A stretch of 64,000 bases of DNA from Methanothrix harundinacea 6Ac (lineage in GTDB: Archaea; Halobacteriota; Methanosarcinia; Methanotrichales; Methanotrichaceae). The notes under the pieces were generated by a model. That model was not told the origin of the DNA. It did not search any database and saw only the letters and a list, made by a program, of their open reading frames with translations. Shown one piece after another: positions 3,836 to 29,803 of the stretch. The stretch spans positions 744,001 through 808,000 of the forward strand of contig NC_017527.1 of NCBI RefSeq assembly GCF_000235565.1. Direction: 5' to 3'. How positions within the stretch are numbered: the first letter of the stretch is position 1; each line of letters opens with the position of its first letter. The position numbers were made by a program, and so were the translations under genes.

Positions 3836-4462
3836 ATGGCGAGCCCTGAGGATAAGGCGAGGGCGGCGGCGAAGATCCGCCCCCGGTCCCTGGAGGAGGC
3901 GAGGGGAGCGGTGGAGGCGCGAGGCCTCCTCTTCTTGAGGCGGCTCGACCGGCTCGAGGCGGGCCTCGCGAGGGTCGGGACGGGCCGGGAGGCCGAGAGG
4001 TTCGGCAGGGCGACGGCGATGTTCCTCCTCGACTCGCTGCCGCTGAGGCCGGAGGCCTGCCCCTTCTGCGTCCAAAACGCGGGCGCGAACCGCTGCGGGT
4101 CTTGCGGCTACGCCGAGACCCACGGCGGGGAGTGCGACGCCGAGACCAGCGCCTTCGGCCAGCTGATCGAGGCGGTCGTCGACCTAGCCGGAGAGATCCA
4201 CGAGATCCGTGATAATCCCTCCACCGGAGCCGTCGATCCCGAGGAAGCTAAAAAGGAGCTGGAGGCTTCCATCGCCCGGTCGAGGGAGGCGGCGGAGCGG
4301 CTCCTGGCCGAGATCGCCGGGGCCGACGTCTCCGGGCTGATGGAGGCGAAGAGGGCCTACATCGGGGCTATCCTGGAGGCCCTCCCCGCAGGGATCATCG
4401 GATCGCCCCAGGTCGATCGGGCCATCGAAGCCGTCCGGGCGAAGCTGGTGCGGTACTGGTAA
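3836..4462 (+). CDS. Protein of unknown function with CPFC...CGSC...C cysteine cluster
   Basis: About 208 residues. I do not recognise the family. Seen: a helical N-terminal region with the motif LDRLEAGLARVG, a cysteine cluster near the middle (CPFC, then CGSC eight residues on, then another Cys) that looks like a metal or zinc-ribbon site, and a long charged, probably coiled-coil C-terminal half. ATG 3836 is preferred for a compact N terminus; ATG 3824 in frame is an alternative. The last 186 bases recur without indels at 9391-9576, where the rest of the gene is decayed. A 31-codon membrane microprotein gene with its own promoter follows in both places, so the two genes were copied as one unit. 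A role in sensing or binding linked to the microprotein is only a guess. Confidence 0.75.
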   Translation: MASPEDKARAAAKIRPRSLEEARGAVEARGLLFLRRLDRLEAGLARVGTGREAERFGRATAMFLLDSLPLRPEACPFCVQNAGANRCGSCGYAETHGGECDAETSAFGQLIEAVVDLAGEIHEIRDNPSTGAVDPEEAKKELEASIARSREAAERLLAEIAGADVSGLMEAKRAYIGAILEALPAGIIGSPQVDRAIEAVRAKLVRYW

Positions 4463-4479
4463 TAGGCGATCCCCAAAAA

Positions 4480-4489
4480 GATATAAATC
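4480..4489 (+). promoter_or_regulatory. TATA box of microprotein gene, copy 1
   Basis: GATATAAATC lies about 35 bases before the microprotein ATG, within the spacer after the upstream stop codon. The same element, preceded by AAAA, is kept in the second copy at 9590-9599. This gives the small gene its own archaeal promoter rather than simple read-through. Confidence 0.65.
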
Positions 4490-4522
4490 AAACCTCAGTC
4501 AAGATAGAGAGAGGGTGTTTTC

Positions 4523-4618
4523 ATGGACATAAAAGAGACCTTGCGCCGGTATCCCTGCATCGTAATCTTCAGCCTCTTTCTGCTGATCATGCTGATAGTG
4601 GTAATATACACCAAGTGA
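4523..4618 (+). CDS. 31-residue single-span membrane microprotein, copy 1
   Basis: The protein has a charged N terminus (MDIKETLRRYP) followed by one hydrophobic helix of about 18 residues and the ending YTK. GGTG lies five bases before the ATG, and a TATA box lies about 35 bases upstream. It is too short for normal gene calling. Evidence that it is real comes from the second copy at 9632-9727: same length, same frame and only four residue changes, all conservative or hydrophobic (K/R, V/A, I/F, K/R). The helix is therefore kept while the bases drift. The positively charged N terminus suggests the N terminus stays in the cytoplasm. No known family recognised; possible roles include membrane-complex modulator or small stress peptide. 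Confidence 0.75.
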   Translation: MDIKETLRRYPCIVIFSLFLLIMLIVVIYTK

Positions 4619-5107
4619 CAGGATGGGCATCCTTTTCTCCTATCTCTTTCATAGCGTCTTCATCGGAGTGCCCGCGTCTGCGGTCATGCCAAAGGTCGAT
4701 CCGGGGGTCCGAATAAAACCCGGCGGATGCAGCCCCGACGACCTCTCGATGATGATATACAGGACACTCGTGGAGACGGCGGAGGACAGAAGCGTTTTTT
4801 ATTGTCCTTCGCCTCCATCGATCAGATAATCCGGTTTCTGCCGTCAGGAGATCGAGGAAAAAGATAGATCGAATCAGACCTGATGGCCTCAAGGATTGAG
4901 TCAAGACGGGGATGTCTCGGCCAATTCTGCCTGGATCAGAGGCGATGCAGCAGACAATGATAATTCCAGTCTCTCCCGTTCCTCCAAAGACGACGGCCCG
5001 GCCTTTGCAGAGAGAGCTCATCCTAAGGAAAAAGGGAGCTTGCGCCATCGGCGCAGCCCGTTTGCTTATTCTGTTGTATGCTCTCTCTCTGCGTGTGATT
5101 TCATACG
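4619..5107. other. Intergenic region, no supported gene
   Basis: About 490 bases between the convergent microprotein gene and the C25 protease gene. Open frames exist on both strands but lack a ribosome-binding site, a domain or any sensible composition. No repeat or strong hairpin was seen. Confidence 0.5.
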
Positions 5108-8100
5108 TTATGCTTTACGAAGGAAGTAGCTGGATCCGCTTGCATTGTGTCTCTCTCCCTTCTTGTAGCATGGACCGGTGGTCGATCCGCTGGGACGATG
5201 GAGCACCTGACACTTATCGCACCAGCGCCATGGAATCGGATCGTCCGTTATAGAGGGGTCCATTCCAATGGCGTACTTTAAGTGTTCCCCAATGTGCTCA
5301 TTTCCGTCACGACACTTCCCTGCCTTTTCCTTGTCTCCAGCAAAGAATAGGCTGCGGCACTTCGTGCACCTGCGCCATCCCTGTTGACCGGGAGCATCCG
5401 GGGAATCATAGACCAAGACATAACGTTCTCCACTCGCCTCTTCATGGGGGCCATCATCCACAGGACAATGGTTATAACGGGGGTTAGTATTGCTGAATAG
5501 CCCATGGCACTTGGTGCATCGTCGCCAGCTTTGCTGGAGCTTGATTACAGGCACTTTTGCGACATAAGGCACGAAGTTCCCCTTTCCGGTCCCGAATTCG
5601 GAAGACACGACCGTTAAGGTGATCTCTGTCAAATCTTGAGGGATGGATGGTTTAAAAGATGCCATGCCCTGGCCATCTGTCAGTCTGGACTCCAGGACCA
5701 CGGGCTCCTGCGAAGAATTGGTCCACCCACCCATCAGAGTCACTCTCTGCAGAGCCATGGGCGAGTCTTTATTCAATACGCAGACCTCAAAGGGTCCGTC
5801 ATACGGTAGCTCCAGATAGTCCGGGCGGACGACCTGATATTTTTTTGGCACCTTCGTCCAGACGCGCATCTCCGGATCTCCGTACAGTATCCGCTCGTAG
5901 ACCGACCATAAATCTCGATCTGGCCAGCTCTGGTCTCCTGCCGCAGGTCCCAATCGTCCATTGCGATATAGGCTCCTCCAGAAGGCTTTATGCCGGGCAT
6001 CATTTCCAAAGCCCATGCGAGTATTGCCGATATAGGCCACTGCACCACCACCTGGATGCAGGACCAGCTTCTCTCCCAGAGATTGATTTCTGTTCTCGGG
6101 CGTATGGACATCATTGATATAAGCGTCCGGCTCGGCTGTGTGACATGAGCTATAAGCTACCGCGATGAAGTATTCATTGTGATTCTTAAAATCATCGCGG
6201 GCCCCGTGCCCTTCATCGCACCAGACCATAGCGCACCTGCTTGGGTTACCGTGACTCTGCAGGATGGCTAGATGACACCCCCTGTCGAGAGCTGCACGGA
6301 TGTTCTCCACCTTCAGTGGCTGAGCGGGCGGCAAGCTCGCAGTCCCCCAAACCTCCTTATAGTCCGAGTAGTATCGCTGGTAGTCGTCGAATTCTCCGAA
6401 AAGTCCCGAGAGGCAATTGCGCATGCCCTCTGCCTGCCTGGTCCAGGTATCACCACGGGGATAGCCATAGAACCAAATTATTCTCTTGGGAGCAACTTTG
6501 AGGGCCGATCCCGTCAGCTTTACATATTCGGTGGGAGTGCTGGAGGAACCCCAATAGTACTTTCGCCCCATACCAACCCTCCGCTCTACGAAACGCCAGC
6601 TCAAGAATCCTGTAATTGGGACCGATGACCCATCGTCATAGATGCAGCTGATATCTGTCCCGAACTCTCTATCGGCCTCGAAGAATCTCGCAACTACGTG
6701 GAAATTGGATTCTTTCCACAAATCTCTCAGCACTTGAAACAGTTTTTCTTGGAGGTGGATCAGAACAAAGTCATCCTGCACCGAATAGATGAATTTTCCG
6801 CTATCTGGTGTTTCCCTAATCCGGTCTGGGTCCTGCCAGAGATTGTTCGTAGTATCCTCTTCGAGGTCTACTGCCATAATCACCCGCTTCAGGTAGGTGG
6901 GATCGACGACTTCAGGGACTTCGTTATCTCCAACTGGTGTCTGAAGACGTTCATACGTCAAGACTCTATCGACAAAGGAGCGAGCGTCTTCACCTGTCCT
7001 TACGGGAGCGCGCCCCACCCAGATGTCGGGGATGCTGGGATCGGAGCTGTCGACAGGAGTCTCTTCGCCGTGTTCGCCGGTTTCATCGTCCACCCAACGG
7101 TACTGGCCATAATAGCCATTATCGAATAGATCGAAGTCGTGTTTATCGGACGGCTCCGAGTCCATACAGGCGTAGTAGAGATCAGAGGGAATCAGCCTAT
7201 CCTTCTCAAGTATCCAATAAAAATCATCGTTTATGTCTGACTCAGGTCCCTCAACTATGAGGTTACATACCGGTGTGTCCTTGGGTGTCTCAGAGTAACC
7301 CTTTTCGGAATTATATGGTTCAGGCTCCCCCTTTAAATCCTGATTGTTGTCCTCGTATAGCGGACGATAATCCCTCTTTGTGAAGTACCACCCAAGTTCA
7401 CCATTGCCGATCTCCCTTCTATTTTCCTTGAATTTTATCACTTTTCCCCGGGAGCTGCATAGCTTCGTCAGGGAGTTAACGGTGAAAAATCTGCACTCGT
7501 GACAGAGGCGAGCTTTTTTGGGATTTCCAACCAAGACGCGTCCTCTTGGTGGTGGATTTGTTCTTGAAGCTTCTATGTCCTCCCCATAATCACAAAAATC
7601 CCAGCCAGGATATTTTCCTTTGCAGGTTGCATAACCGAGCAATTTTCTCATGGGGACTATTTCGAGGGAGCCTCCGAGCAGCAGATATTCAAGGCCCCAG
7701 TTATTATGAGCCCATTTGATGAAGTTGCGGATAACCTCCTGAAGATCCCGAGCAGGATTTGCAGAGTTGGCATGTGCAAAATCTCCATAATCTCCTGCGA
7801 GGATGGACTCAACGGTCACAACTCGTGTGCGCATGCCGCGTGATGTCTTCCATTCCGCCAGCCGCTCGAAGTGCTCTACTGGCCCGGGTCCATTAACATT
7901 TAAAGCCTTCTTTCGAGGGTCATTTTTTTCGGGGGCACCGTTCCCGTCTGTGCCCTTCTCAGGCCATGTAGAATTATCGGTGATGATGACATAGGGTATG
8001 CTTGGAAGATCGACCACTTCCTTAACGCCAGACCCAACATCTTTGGCCATGAAGACGTGATCCCTATCCAGAACAGACTGGATCCGCTGCAATCTGCGCT

Positions 8101-8983
8101 GTCTGAACGTGCGATCAGCCGCAAGTGCCTTCTCAGCAGGTCGGGCCTCCTGTAAATCATAGTGAACAGTGTAGCGCAGGTTCGGGTGGAATATGAAGTT
8201 GCGCTTGACGGGATCGAACTGGACGGGCCGGACGAGCATCCTGAGGATCTGAACAGACTCTTTCTGTCTGATCGATAACCGGACGACCATATCTGCTGGG
8301 TACGGCTTCGTCTGCTTCAGATAGCTGGGATAGACCTGCATGAGGGAAACACTCCCGGGGAAGATGGGTTCTGGGTCTATCCGGTCTCCCCAGTCCTGCT
8401 TTGGTGCCCTGACCGGTAGTGGATTAACCTCCGCCGGCAGACGTATCGATCTGCCCGGCTGAACCTCCACCTTGAGGACCTTTGCTCCAAGAGGCAGGAC
8501 GATGTATTGGATCTTCTCTGGCAGCGAAGGCGCTCCTATCAGCCCTCCGTTATCCCATCCAGGCAGGCGCGGGATGTCGAGCATATCCACCTTCTCCATC
8601 TTCAGATCGCTCTGTAAGAGATTTACCCCCGCCTCGACAATGCCGTCAGGGCCGGAGGGAGAGAGCTGGCCGAGCTTTTCGCGAGGTATCTCTAGCTCGA
8701 TATGCTCTTCATCTTTCGCACCCCACTGCATCTTCTCTTTGGTATCCATCAGGAAACGAAAAGGTGGCGTGAAGATGCGGAGGAATATCTCAGGACGGGC
8801 CTCAAACAGGTCTGGAGCTGCGTCTTTCTGATAAACCATTTTAAAACTACCATCGGAATCAGTTATAGTCGTTTTAAGGGACTTGTCATATCTTCTGCCT
8901 CTATCATAGGATCGGACAATTAATCCACTGATGCCGAGATGGCTTTCAAGCTCGCGTATGCGTCCAGATATAGTATATTGCAT
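5108..8983 (-). CDS. Gingipain-like (peptidase C25) cysteine protease with C-terminal CxxC repeats
   Basis: This 1291-residue protein opens with a beta-rich region like a carboxypeptidase-regulatory/transthyretin domain (residues 1-60) and no signal peptide. A C25 propeptide-like region follows. The caspase-like core carries IPYVIITDN near 330, LLLGGSLEIVP, and PDIWVGRAPVRT. The catalytic pair is His911 in QSHGNP and Cys947 in YSSCHTA. A Cys insertion (CHEC...C) sits within the core. The C terminus from about residue 1150 has three units of the form W-R-x-C-x-K-C-x-x-L followed by a third Cys and a His, probably metal-binding. The start ATG follows GGAG at seven bases, with an ATATATAT-rich promoter upstream. 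Base composition is clearly more AT-rich than the flanking genes, which suggests transfer. The second C25 protein in the window (32685-34838) is differently built. Confidence 0.8.
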   Translation of the reverse strand: MQYTISGRIRELESHLGISGLIVRSYDRGRRYDKSLKTTITDSDGSFKMVYQKDAAPDLFEARPEIFLRIFTPPFRFLMDTKEKMQWGAKDEEHIELEIPREKLGQLSPSGPDGIVEAGVNLLQSDLKMEKVDMLDIPRLPGWDNGGLIGAPSLPEKIQYIVLPLGAKVLKVEVQPGRSIRLPAEVNPLPVRAPKQDWGDRIDPEPIFPGSVSLMQVYPSYLKQTKPYPADMVVRLSIRQKESVQILRMLVRPVQFDPVKRNFIFHPNLRYTVHYDLQEARPAEKALAADRTFRQRRLQRIQSVLDRDHVFMAKDVGSGVKEVVDLPSIPYVIITDNSTWPEKGTDGNGAPEKNDPRKKALNVNGPGPVEHFERLAEWKTSRGMRTRVVTVESILAGDYGDFAHANSANPARDLQEVIRNFIKWAHNNWGLEYLLLGGSLEIVPMRKLLGYATCKGKYPGWDFCDYGEDIEASRTNPPPRGRVLVGNPKKARLCHECRFFTVNSLTKLCSSRGKVIKFKENRREIGNGELGWYFTKRDYRPLYEDNNQDLKGEPEPYNSEKGYSETPKDTPVCNLIVEGPESDINDDFYWILEKDRLIPSDLYYACMDSEPSDKHDFDLFDNGYYGQYRWVDDETGEHGEETPVDSSDPSIPDIWVGRAPVRTGEDARSFVDRVLTYERLQTPVGDNEVPEVVDPTYLKRVIMAVDLEEDTTNNLWQDPDRIRETPDSGKFIYSVQDDFVLIHLQEKLFQVLRDLWKESNFHVVARFFEADREFGTDISCIYDDGSSVPITGFLSWRFVERRVGMGRKYYWGSSSTPTEYVKLTGSALKVAPKRIIWFYGYPRGDTWTRQAEGMRNCLSGLFGEFDDYQRYYSDYKEVWGTASLPPAQPLKVENIRAALDRGCHLAILQSHGNPSRCAMVWCDEGHGARDDFKNHNEYFIAVAYSSCHTAEPDAYINDVHTPENRNQSLGEKLVLHPGGGAVAYIGNTRMGFGNDARHKAFWRSLYRNGRLGPAAGDQSWPDRDLWSVYERILYGDPEMRVWTKVPKKYQVVRPDYLELPYDGPFEVCVLNKDSPMALQRVTLMGGWTNSSQEPVVLESRLTDGQGMASFKPSIPQDLTEITLTVVSSEFGTGKGNFVPYVAKVPVIKLQQSWRRCTKCHGLFSNTNPRYNHCPVDDGPHEEASGERYVLVYDSPDAPGQQGWRRCTKCRSLFFAGDKEKAGKCRDGNEHIGEHLKYAIGMDPSITDDPIPWRWCDKCQVLHRPSGSTTGPCYKKGERHNASGSSYFLRKA

Positions 8984-9348: not shown

Positions 9349-9576
9349 AGCTGGACCCGCTCGAAGCAGGTCTGGAGGAAAATAATCGGCCGGTCGAGGG
9401 AGGCGGCGGAGCGGCTCCTGGCCGAGATCGGCGGGGCCGACGTCTCCGGTCTGATGGAGGCGAAGAGGGCCTACATCGGGGCGATCCTGGAGGCCCTCCC
9501 CGCAGGGATCATCGGATCTCGAAAGGTCGACCGGCGGATCGAAATGGTCGCATTGAGGCTGGAGGGGTACTGGTGA
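9349..9576 (+). pseudogene. Decayed partial copy of the 3836-4462 cysteine-cluster gene
   Basis: Bases 9391-9576 match 4277-4462 over exactly 186 positions with no indel, including the C-terminal coding stretch and a stop codon (TGA here, TAA there). Just before it, 9351-9371 encodes LDPLEAG, matching LDRLEAG of the intact gene's N-terminal third. The middle, including all the cysteine motifs, is deleted. The upstream fragment is also in a different frame from the 3' fragment. No start codon and frame combination restores the full protein. It is a remnant of a second copy that stayed next to an intact second microprotein gene. Confidence 0.8.
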
Positions 9577-9589
9577 AGGCCCCCGAAAA

Positions 9590-9599
9590 GATATAAATC
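9590..9599 (+). promoter_or_regulatory. TATA box of microprotein gene, copy 2
   Basis: GATATAAATC is identical to the element at 4480-4489 and stands at a comparable distance before the second microprotein ATG. It is preserved although the upstream gene copy has decayed, which supports its role as the microprotein promoter. Confidence 0.65.
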
Positions 9600-9631
9600 G
9601 GGAAAAGGCGGAATATATAGAAGGTGTTTTC

Positions 9632-9727
9632 ATGGACATAAGAGAGACCTTGCGCCGGTATCCCTGCATCGCCATCTTCAGCCTCTTTCTGCTGATCATG
9701 CTGATCGTGGTATTCTACACCAGGTGA
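9632..9727 (+). CDS. 31-residue single-span membrane microprotein, copy 2
   Basis: Paralogue of the microprotein at 4523-4618, starting MDIRETLRRYP and ending YTR, with the same length and one predicted transmembrane helix. GGTGTTTTC immediately precedes the ATG, as in copy 1, and the TATA box is conserved. Unlike the neighbouring gene copy, this reading frame has no indel or stop and its basic residues are kept as K/R exchanges. That points to continued selection on the peptide and not on the cysteine-cluster gene. Function unknown. Confidence 0.75.
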   Translation: MDIRETLRRYPCIAIFSLFLLIMLIVVFYTR

Positions 9728-9861
9728 GGGGACGGGGGCTCTTCCCCCTACCTCTGAAACCACCTTCGTACCCTTTTTCAGCCATCGTTCGATCCTCCAA
9801 TTTGATGATCTCTACCGCATCCGACCCCCCAGATCTCCGGGCCTCAAGCCCCCCTCAGGAT

Positions 9862-9893: not shown

Positions 9894-10358
9894 ATGGAAT
9901 GCAGCGAGCCCTGCCGGGAGTTCTGTCGGTGGATAGAGACCCTCCCCCACCACAGGAAGTACGTCCTCAGGAAGGAGGAGTACCCGGCCCTTCCCAACTG
10001 CTTCAAGGAGACGCTCCTAGGGGAGGCGGTGCCGGGGTCGGTCCGGCAGCTCCGGGGGCCGGCGGGGTCCCACGTCCACGAGTTCCCGGATCGGTGGGTC
10101 CTCCACCGGGACATCGCCGACGCCGAGGCCGACCCCCTGGGCCACCTCCTCAGCGACGCCCCCGAGTACCTCGTCTCGGCGATCGCGGGGCTAGCCACCG
10201 CCCTCCTCGCCAAACAGAAGAGGGACGGGAGGAACGCCCTCCTCGCCGGATGGTCGATGACCGCCTTCCTCCTCCTCCTGGGGAAGATGGGAAAGACGAT
10301 CGGCGAGGACGACTCCGAGAAGGAGGCCCAGGCGCCCCGCCTCAAGTCAGGGTTTTGA
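9894..10358 (+). CDS. Uncharacterised protein with C-terminal membrane segments
   Basis: About 154 residues; family not recognised. The N-terminal part is soluble and begins with a short cysteine pattern (MECSEPCREFCRW), followed by a His/Asp-rich stretch. The C-terminal third has two hydrophobic stretches (YLVSAIAGLATALLA and a second around SMTAFLLLL) separated by a basic loop, so it is probably membrane-attached. ATG 9894 is preferred over TTG 9885 because the TATA box at 9862 fits a leaderless start there. It stands alone in front of marC. Confidence 0.65.
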   Translation: MECSEPCREFCRWIETLPHHRKYVLRKEEYPALPNCFKETLLGEAVPGSVRQLRGPAGSHVHEFPDRWVLHRDIADAEADPLGHLLSDAPEYLVSAIAGLATALLAKQKRDGRNALLAGWSMTAFLLLLGKMGKTIGEDDSEKEAQAPRLKSGF

Positions 10359-27757: not shown

Positions 27758-29803
27758 ATGAAGGGCATTTTCCGGCGGTCAGCCCCGGGGCTGATCTATG
27801 CAACTTTTGTTCTTTTGATGCTGGCGACCTTGGGATATTCTCAGATGGATCCCAACGAGCCGAATAGCGAGCTTGGAAGCGCCACATGGATCAGCCCAGG
27901 GGTTTCCGCCGCGGGGACCATAAACCCGGCGGGGGACGTGGACTTCTTCGGCTTTGAGGTCGAAAGCCCAGGGGTCCTGGAGGTGAAGTTGAACGCCCTT
28001 CCCCACGATATGAGAGCGAGGATAGACCTCTACGGCAAGAACTTCAACTTCATCACCAGGAAAGACGCCTCAAACCCCGGAGACCTGGTGGCCCTCACCC
28101 TCGATCTGGCAAGCCCGGGCCGGTACTACTTCGGGATCGTCGACCTGGCGGGCAAGTCCCACGATACCGGGTACTCCTTCGATCTTTCCTTTGGGCCCGT
28201 CGTAGACGTAAACGAGCCGAACGGCGAGGCTGGCGACGCCAAGTCAGTCGGATTCGGCGATCTCATCTTGGGATACATCTTCCCGAAGGGGGACGCGGAT
28301 ATCTACAAGCTCAATGTAACCGGCTCCGGGATCCTGGAGGTGAAGGCCGAGTCCGTCCCCGAGGGGATGAAGACGAGGATCGACCTCTACGGCAAGAACT
28401 TCAACTTCATCACCAGGGTCGATGCATCGAACCCCGGAGATCTGGTGACCCTGAAGCACGACGTGGTCAATCCTTATAGCTGGTATCCGGTAAGTTACTA
28501 CGTCGGGATCACTGACCTCTCGGGAGGCTCCTACCACGTCCCCTACACCTTCAAGGCGGACTTTGAGCCGGTCATCGACGAGAACGAGCCGAACGGCGAG
28601 ATCGGGGATGCGGTGGCCATCGCCTTCGGCGATCAGATAGAGGGGTACATCTTCTCCAAGGGGGACGTAGACTTCTTCAAGTTTGAGGCGCCGAGCCCCG
28701 GAATCCTGGAGGTTAAGACGGCATCCGTCCCCGAGGAGATGAGGACGAGGATCGACCTCTACGGCAAGAGCTTCAACTTCATCACCAGGATTGACGCCTC
28801 AAACCCCGGGGATAAGACGACCCTCAGGTTTGATGTGAAGAGCCCGGGAGTTTACCACATCGGGGTCGTCGACCTGGCGGGCAGATCCCATAAGGTCCCT
28901 TACAGCTTCGCCGCCTCCTTCGAGCCGGTGGTGGACGATAACGAGCCGAAGAGCGAGATAGGGGACGCCGCCCCCATCAGCCCCGGCGAGGCTGTCGGAG
29001 GGGTCATCTTCCCGGCGGGGGACGTCGACTTCTACAAGATATGGGCCGACAGCCCCGGCGACCTGGAGGTGATGCTCGAATCCGTCCCCGATGAGATGAG
29101 GGCGAGGATCGACCTCTACGGCAAGAACTTCAACTTCATCACGAGAGCGGACGCCTCAAACCCCGGCGACCTGGCGACCCTCAAATATGGGGCTCCCGGA
29201 CCAGGCTGGTACTACATCGGGATCGTCGACCTGGCGGGCAGGTCCCACAGCACCGGCTACTCCTTCCGGGCCGTCGGCGGAGGCCTTGGGGGGAGCGGTT
29301 CCGGCCCTCAGGAGGGGGGAGCCGTCGGGACCAAGGCCGGAGGGGTGAAGGTGGTATCTGATGGTACCGCCAATGGGACGGCGACTTCGTATCGAGAGGC
29401 GACCCTCACCCATTCGGGGTTCGACTTCTCGTTGGGTGAAACCGGCGAATATCCCACCTTCGACGGCGAGATCATAACCTGGCAGCCCAGCGCTGAAGAC
29501 CATCCGGATTATCCTCGCGACGCCGGCTACCTCTGGTGGAGGAACACCCACCTCGACGACCAGAACCGGGTCAGCCAGACCAGGGATATGGGGTCGGTCG
29601 ATCTGGAGGCGGTGCGAACCGTCCCTGCGGAATGGGACAGATCTCCCCTGATACCCCCTCTCCTGGAAGGGCATACCATCGTCGCCAGGTGCAATGACGG
29701 CTACGTCAAGTTCCAGGTGATATCGGTGGATCCCGAAGCCGAGTCGGTCGTCGTCAGGTATTTCCACTCCCCTGATGCCACCTTCGACGATGGCGCGAGC
29801 TGA
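27758..29803 (+). CDS. Exported protein with four PPC-like tandem repeats
   Basis: 681 residues with a signal peptide (LIYATFVLLMLATLGYS). Four repeats follow, each starting D-x-N-E-P-N/K-x-E and containing GDVDFFGFEV-type strands, then RIDLYGKNFNFITR and DASNPGD, then Y-x-G-I/V-V/T-D-L. This matches the pre-peptidase C-terminal (PPC) beta-sandwich often attached to secreted proteases. The repeat units at DNA level are spaced 357, 372 and 357 bases. A separate 160-residue C-terminal domain (after a Gly-rich linker near residue 510) contains AGYLWWRNTHLDDQNRVSQ and an FQVISVDPEAESVVVRYF sandwich; I do not recognise it. No protease domain is present. GGAGAG lies about 12 bases before the ATG. 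Probably a surface or matrix protein. Confidence 0.75.
   Translation: MKGIFRRSAPGLIYATFVLLMLATLGYSQMDPNEPNSELGSATWISPGVSAAGTINPAGDVDFFGFEVESPGVLEVKLNALPHDMRARIDLYGKNFNFITRKDASNPGDLVALTLDLASPGRYYFGIVDLAGKSHDTGYSFDLSFGPVVDVNEPNGEAGDAKSVGFGDLILGYIFPKGDADIYKLNVTGSGILEVKAESVPEGMKTRIDLYGKNFNFITRVDASNPGDLVTLKHDVVNPYSWYPVSYYVGITDLSGGSYHVPYTFKADFEPVIDENEPNGEIGDAVAIAFGDQIEGYIFSKGDVDFFKFEAPSPGILEVKTASVPEEMRTRIDLYGKSFNFITRIDASNPGDKTTLRFDVKSPGVYHIGVVDLAGRSHKVPYSFAASFEPVVDDNEPKSEIGDAAPISPGEAVGGVIFPAGDVDFYKIWADSPGDLEVMLESVPDEMRARIDLYGKNFNFITRADASNPGDLATLKYGAPGPGWYYIGIVDLAGRSHSTGYSFRAVGGGLGGSGSGPQEGGAVGTKAGGVKVVSDGTANGTATSYREATLTHSGFDFSLGETGEYPTFDGEIITWQPSAEDHPDYPRDAGYLWWRNTHLDDQNRVSQTRDMGSVDLEAVRTVPAEWDRSPLIPPLLEGHTIVARCNDGYVKFQVISVDPEAESVVVRYFHSPDATFDDGAS

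Follow-up and report, generated by a model that had tools for sequence, protein, structure and literature searches.

The window, the whole 64,000-nucleotide stretch analysed here (positions 744001-808000 of a 2,559,043-base contig in the 2,571,034-base genome of Methanothrix harundinacea 6Ac, hereafter G000), holds two 96-base frames of equal length, as the sequence-only reading of this DNA had reported. The peptides that they encode, MDIKETLRRYPCIVIFSLFLLIMLIVVIYTK (copy 1) and MDIRETLRRYPCIAIFSLFLLIMLIVVFYTR (copy 2), differ by K4R, V14A, I28F and K31R, which are the four exchanges (K/R twice, V/A and I/F) described in that reading. The microprotein pattern was matched twice in the window (vs. 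0 in 100 shuffles), and the search of the whole G000 genome gave exactly two copies. A weak match at position 27758 of the window was rejected; it is the N-terminus of a longer, exported-protein-like open frame.

Each copy had been credited with its own TATA box and ribosome-binding site, and both were present: TATAAA lies 41 bases (copy 1) and 40 bases (copy 2) before the start codon, and GGTG 5 bases before it. Allowing one mismatch at most, the 15-base element GAAAAGMTATAAATC occurs in the 2.57 Mb genome only at the two microprotein copies, and the reversed-pattern control had 0 matches in the same genome. In the alignment of the five copies found in the genus (see below), the blocks TATAAATC and GGTGTT are invariant, and TATA, spacing and GGTG are maintained in 5/5 copies; the start codon is GTG in the carrier genome G010. 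The predicted BRE/TATA elements would give each microprotein copy a promoter of its own. Judging by the position of the TATA box, the leader would be about 15 bases long, and a promoter so near to the frame suggests that the microprotein is probably made alone and not as part of an operon.

The conserved gene upstream of copy 1 (up212) had no Pfam or NCBIfam family above cut-off. It was matched in 45 of the 50 genomes of the order Methanotrichales, with or without the microprotein. Its Cys-rich motif, CPFC...CGSCGYAETHGGEC, looks conserved. The gene copy adjoining copy 2 had been called decayed, which is correct if taken to mean truncated: the gene before copy 1 is complete, but before copy 2 only a remnant of the 3' part survives (Table 1). 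Downstream lies a gene for a 154-aa protein, for which no family match was found; its homologues in 7 further genomes of the genus share 78-91% identity with it, and marC lies 3' of it. The gene order up212, microprotein, 154-aa gene, marC is found in all carriers. The microprotein and the 154-aa gene are separated in G012 (locus on contig C54, 46000-62000) by about 1.86 kb that carries two genes whose products, judged by eye, look exported.

Table 1. Features of the microprotein locus (positions in the window).
Feature	Position	Strand	Details
Conserved upstream gene (up212)	3836..4462	+	208 aa from this start; Cys-rich motif
Predicted BRE/TATA promoter element of copy 1	4475..4489	+	AAAAAGATATAAATC; TATAAA at 4482-4487
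Predicted ribosome-binding site of copy 1	4511..4517	+	GAGGGTG; ends 5 bases before ATG
Microprotein gene copy 1	4523..4618	+	31 aa; single predicted membrane helix, about residues 12-30
Peptidase family C25 (gingipain-like) gene	5108..8983	-	1291 aa; PF01364, E 9e-38; between the two copies
Upstream-gene 3' remnant before copy 2	9385..9576	+	63 codons; 82.5% identical to the 3' end of the first copy
Predicted BRE/TATA promoter element of copy 2	9585..9599	+	GAAAAGATATAAATC; TATAAA at 9592-9597
Predicted ribosome-binding site of copy 2	9620..9626	+	GAAGGTG; ends 5 bases before ATG
Microprotein gene copy 2	9632..9727	+	31 aa
Conserved downstream gene	9894..10358	+	154 aa; right-hand neighbour of the microprotein in all carriers

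Strong matches to the microprotein were present in 4 of the 50 genomes of the order, namely G000 (two copies), G008, G010 and G012. All carriers belong to one genus (4 of its 9 genomes, 5 copies in total), so that the spread over Methanotrichales expected from the sequence-only reading was not observed. None of the five copies has a broken frame; frequent breaks among homologues had been named as what would speak against a gene. Order-level matches at E 0.1-0.8 were rejected as partial or lacking the frame. A five-copy profile run against 237 genomes of the class gave no credible further relative, the best match (E 7e-4) being rejected because it covers 17 residues only, inside a 261-aa frame. 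The search of the GTDB collection returned three loci, those of G008, G012 and G010, and the viral contigs searched had no microprotein match. The Pfam, NCBIfam and PADLOC profiles gave no family for either copy. The best match in PHROGs (E 0.052, function unknown) was not counted as a relative, and a PDB profile match (E 0.067, over 14 residues of a helix in a complex I subunit) was taken as chance. In the open-licence literature on small proteins or sORFs of M. harundinacea or Methanothrix, nothing was found on the microprotein. We conclude that the microprotein is a genuine, narrow and unclassified family; the family is new, its kind is already known.

Within the genus, G007, G009 and G011 have both flanking genes, separated by about 90-125 bases that contain no such frame. 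G013 has no microprotein before the 154-aa gene, and parts of its upstream gene lie at two separate places. The microprotein is therefore dispensable in these four genomes. The two parts of the G013 upstream gene lie about 356 kb apart (contig C1, near 1273821 and 1629762), as if the genome had been rearranged through the gene. The nine genomes of the genus thus comprise 4 carriers and 4 non-carriers, with G014 in neither group. In an unrooted tree of five marker proteins (8 genomes), one branch splits carriers from non-carriers (support 100/100), indicating one gain or one loss. In the tree of the upstream gene with outgroups, the carriers G008 and G010 branch outside all others (support 85/92), which would favour a loss, not firmly. 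The leader DNA of G007, G011 and G013 has a weak likeness to that of the carriers (P 0.003-0.5 against shuffles, in 20 comparisons including G009). In other genera, 22 loci with the upstream gene were inspected; small hydrophobic frames lie at most 300 bases downstream at three of these, none of them similar to the microprotein.

Selection on the peptide had been argued from the two copies of the window. These differ at 7 bases with 4 residue changes, compared to 5.0 expected by random placement (P 0.32), and their dN/dS is 0.52. The two-copy argument is unsound, because of this count and because part of the DNA compared consists of near-identical mosaic tracts (see below). By contrast, when copy 1-copy 2 is set aside, dN/dS was 0.05-0.19 in all but one of the 9 pairs, the exception being G008-G012 (0.31, P 0.14). 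The conclusion of selection at peptide level therefore stands on the orthologues and not on the copies. Pooled over two separate pairs (copy 2-G012 and G008-G010), changes affected 18.0 of 42.2 synonymous sites (0.43) vs. 8.0 of 143.8 non-synonymous sites (0.056) (Fisher P 4e-8, start codon left out). The resulting pN/pS was 0.13 in the microprotein frame vs. 0.39-4.95 in the other five frames; strong constraint is thus found in one frame of six only. It is also tighter than in the upstream gene, whose dN/dS was 0.46 (copy 1-G012), 0.31 (G008-G010) and 0.31 (copy 1-G008). The microprotein is very probably a real translated gene.

The AlphaFold2 model has helices at residues 3-9 and 11-30 (mean pLDDT 85.7, pTM 0.42), in agreement with the single membrane helix that had been predicted. 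In each of the five copies, the 19-residue segment that scores best on the biological hydrophobicity scale is 12-30 (-2.9 to -5.0). Hydrophobic-to-hydrophobic changes in the helix (3.0 of 41.3 sites) were rarer than synonymous changes (10.0 of 23.3; P 0.001). A generic anchor would not need to avoid such swaps, so that specific contacts of the helix are probable. Its invariant face covers 200 degrees, which is not significant (P 0.16).

Other accounts of the locus were weighed against these data. The two copies (4260-4620 vs. 9374-9730) are a mosaic of shared and diverged tracts: at about 4275-4405 and about 4541-4600 they agree mutually and differ from G012, and between these tracts copy 2 sides with G012, while copy 1 often resembles G008. 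This pattern suggests gene conversion or recombination; recent common ancestry could produce such likeness as well. The most likely origin of copy 2 is a joint duplication of the upstream gene and the microprotein, after which the second upstream gene would have lost its 5' part and microprotein copy 2 would have stayed intact. Recent duplication and gene conversion without any selection could explain why the two copies are so alike, with their seven differences, four of them residue-changing, and their mosaic tracts, but the low dN/dS between species is left unexplained. This explanation therefore applies to the two-copy argument and not to the gene, and we consider it very unlikely as a full account. 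A non-coding RNA or regulatory stretch with a conserved promoter, open by chance, is extremely unlikely. The high conservation of promoter and leader would be expected from it, but changes concentrate at synonymous sites in one frame only, and conservation in the five-copy alignment falls directly 3' of the stop codon. Moreover, the mRNA structure was no stronger than in shuffles (z -0.33 and 0.74), the covariation term was unfavourable for an RNA element, and the best Rfam match (E 0.86) was far under its gathering score.

Two further explanations, the main rivals, accept a translated peptide. It could be a type I toxin-like membrane peptide that is kept under control by an antisense RNA and that, when abundant, causes membrane depolarisation or dormancy. 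Like the bacterial type I toxins of the TisB, Ldr and ZorO type, the microprotein is small and hydrophobic, has one predicted membrane helix (with basic ends) and is narrowly distributed; its strong-looking own promoter fits as well. Its duplication also has parallels, such loci being sometimes duplicated, as described for zorO/zorP (PMC3919570). Against this, besides the sense TATA itself, no antisense TATA-like site is kept in the five copies, though a trans-encoded antitoxin is possible. The leaders of known type I toxin mRNAs are long and structured, whereas that of the microprotein appears to be very short and unstructured, and archaea are not known to have a type I system. A toxin is thus unlikely. 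We regard as equally doubtful a recently born, lineage-specific translated frame whose helix is tolerated or mildly useful and has no fixed partner. Its occurrence in one genus only and its having been lost or never gained in the sister clade agree with such a frame, but the constraint exceeds that of the conserved gene next to it, and the helix avoids even conservative hydrophobic swaps, which a merely tolerated helix would not need to do.

We consider it fairly probable that the microprotein spans the membrane once and serves a membrane complex, its putative partner, as an accessory or regulatory peptide; that it acts through helix contact with a larger membrane partner has about an even chance. 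The microprotein would be transcribed alone from its own promoter with a short leader, giving a 31-residue single-span membrane protein. Residues 12-30 would cross the membrane, and the N-terminus would be cytosolic according to the positive-inside rule. The cytosolic part would consist of a short helix with K/R4 and R8-R/Q9, followed by a Y10-P11 kink, and the membrane helix would pack against a larger membrane protein or complex, altering its stability or activity.

MgtR, KdpF and sarcolipin are single-span small regulatory proteins of bacteria and animals, and small proteins of this kind alter the stability or activity of larger membrane partners. The microprotein shares with them a length of about 30 residues, one membrane helix, a short charged N-terminus and its own small gene or cassette, and as an independent small gene selected as a peptide it has one of the traits expected of such regulators. 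Unlike them, it has no family or solved-structure match in the profile searches. Small methanogen proteins acting at the membrane are described in three papers on Methanosarcina mazei: MtrI (68 aa) and MtrR (49 aa) act on the Mtr complex and sP36 (61 aa) on AmtB1, and MtrR is stated there to be conserved only in its genus, as is the microprotein (PMC12774963, PMC13370731, PMC10714827). By these descriptions, the microprotein differs in size and architecture: its length is roughly half to two thirds of theirs, and it is itself a predicted membrane span, whereas a membrane helix is stated to be lacking in MtrR and sP36, and MtrI to have a zinc ribbon.

The neighbouring genes are widespread without the microprotein and are therefore poor partner candidates. 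KdpA, the partner of KdpF, is missing from all nine genomes of the genus, unlike in KdpF systems (a control search matched 5/14), and H+-PPase is also absent from 9/9. The ammonium transporter (Amt) and P-type ATPase are present in 9/9 genomes, carriers or not. None of these four tracks the microprotein, and so none explains its presence pattern. A bolder proposal, possible but rather improbable, is that this Methanothrix-specific microprotein uses helix-helix contact to tune a complex for energy conservation or ion transport in methanogens that live on acetate. If true, sarcolipin, MgtR or KdpF would have an archaeal counterpart, with a standalone gene doubled in one species. Small membrane proteins belong to the most poorly known fraction of archaeal proteomes, and the microprotein is a short, testable target with comparative gene evidence in an acetate-using methanogen genus, where its patchy presence (4 genomes with, 4 without, G014 uncounted) offers a natural comparison for finding the partner.

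The G+C content is 0.49-0.56 in the region of the C25 peptidase gene between the two copies, compared to 0.66-0.70 outside. No signal peptide is evident by eye in the peptidase, and its C-terminus carries three repeated Cys/His zinc-ribbon-like units. The site just 3' of the microprotein holds unrelated insertions in two sister species, G000 and G012.
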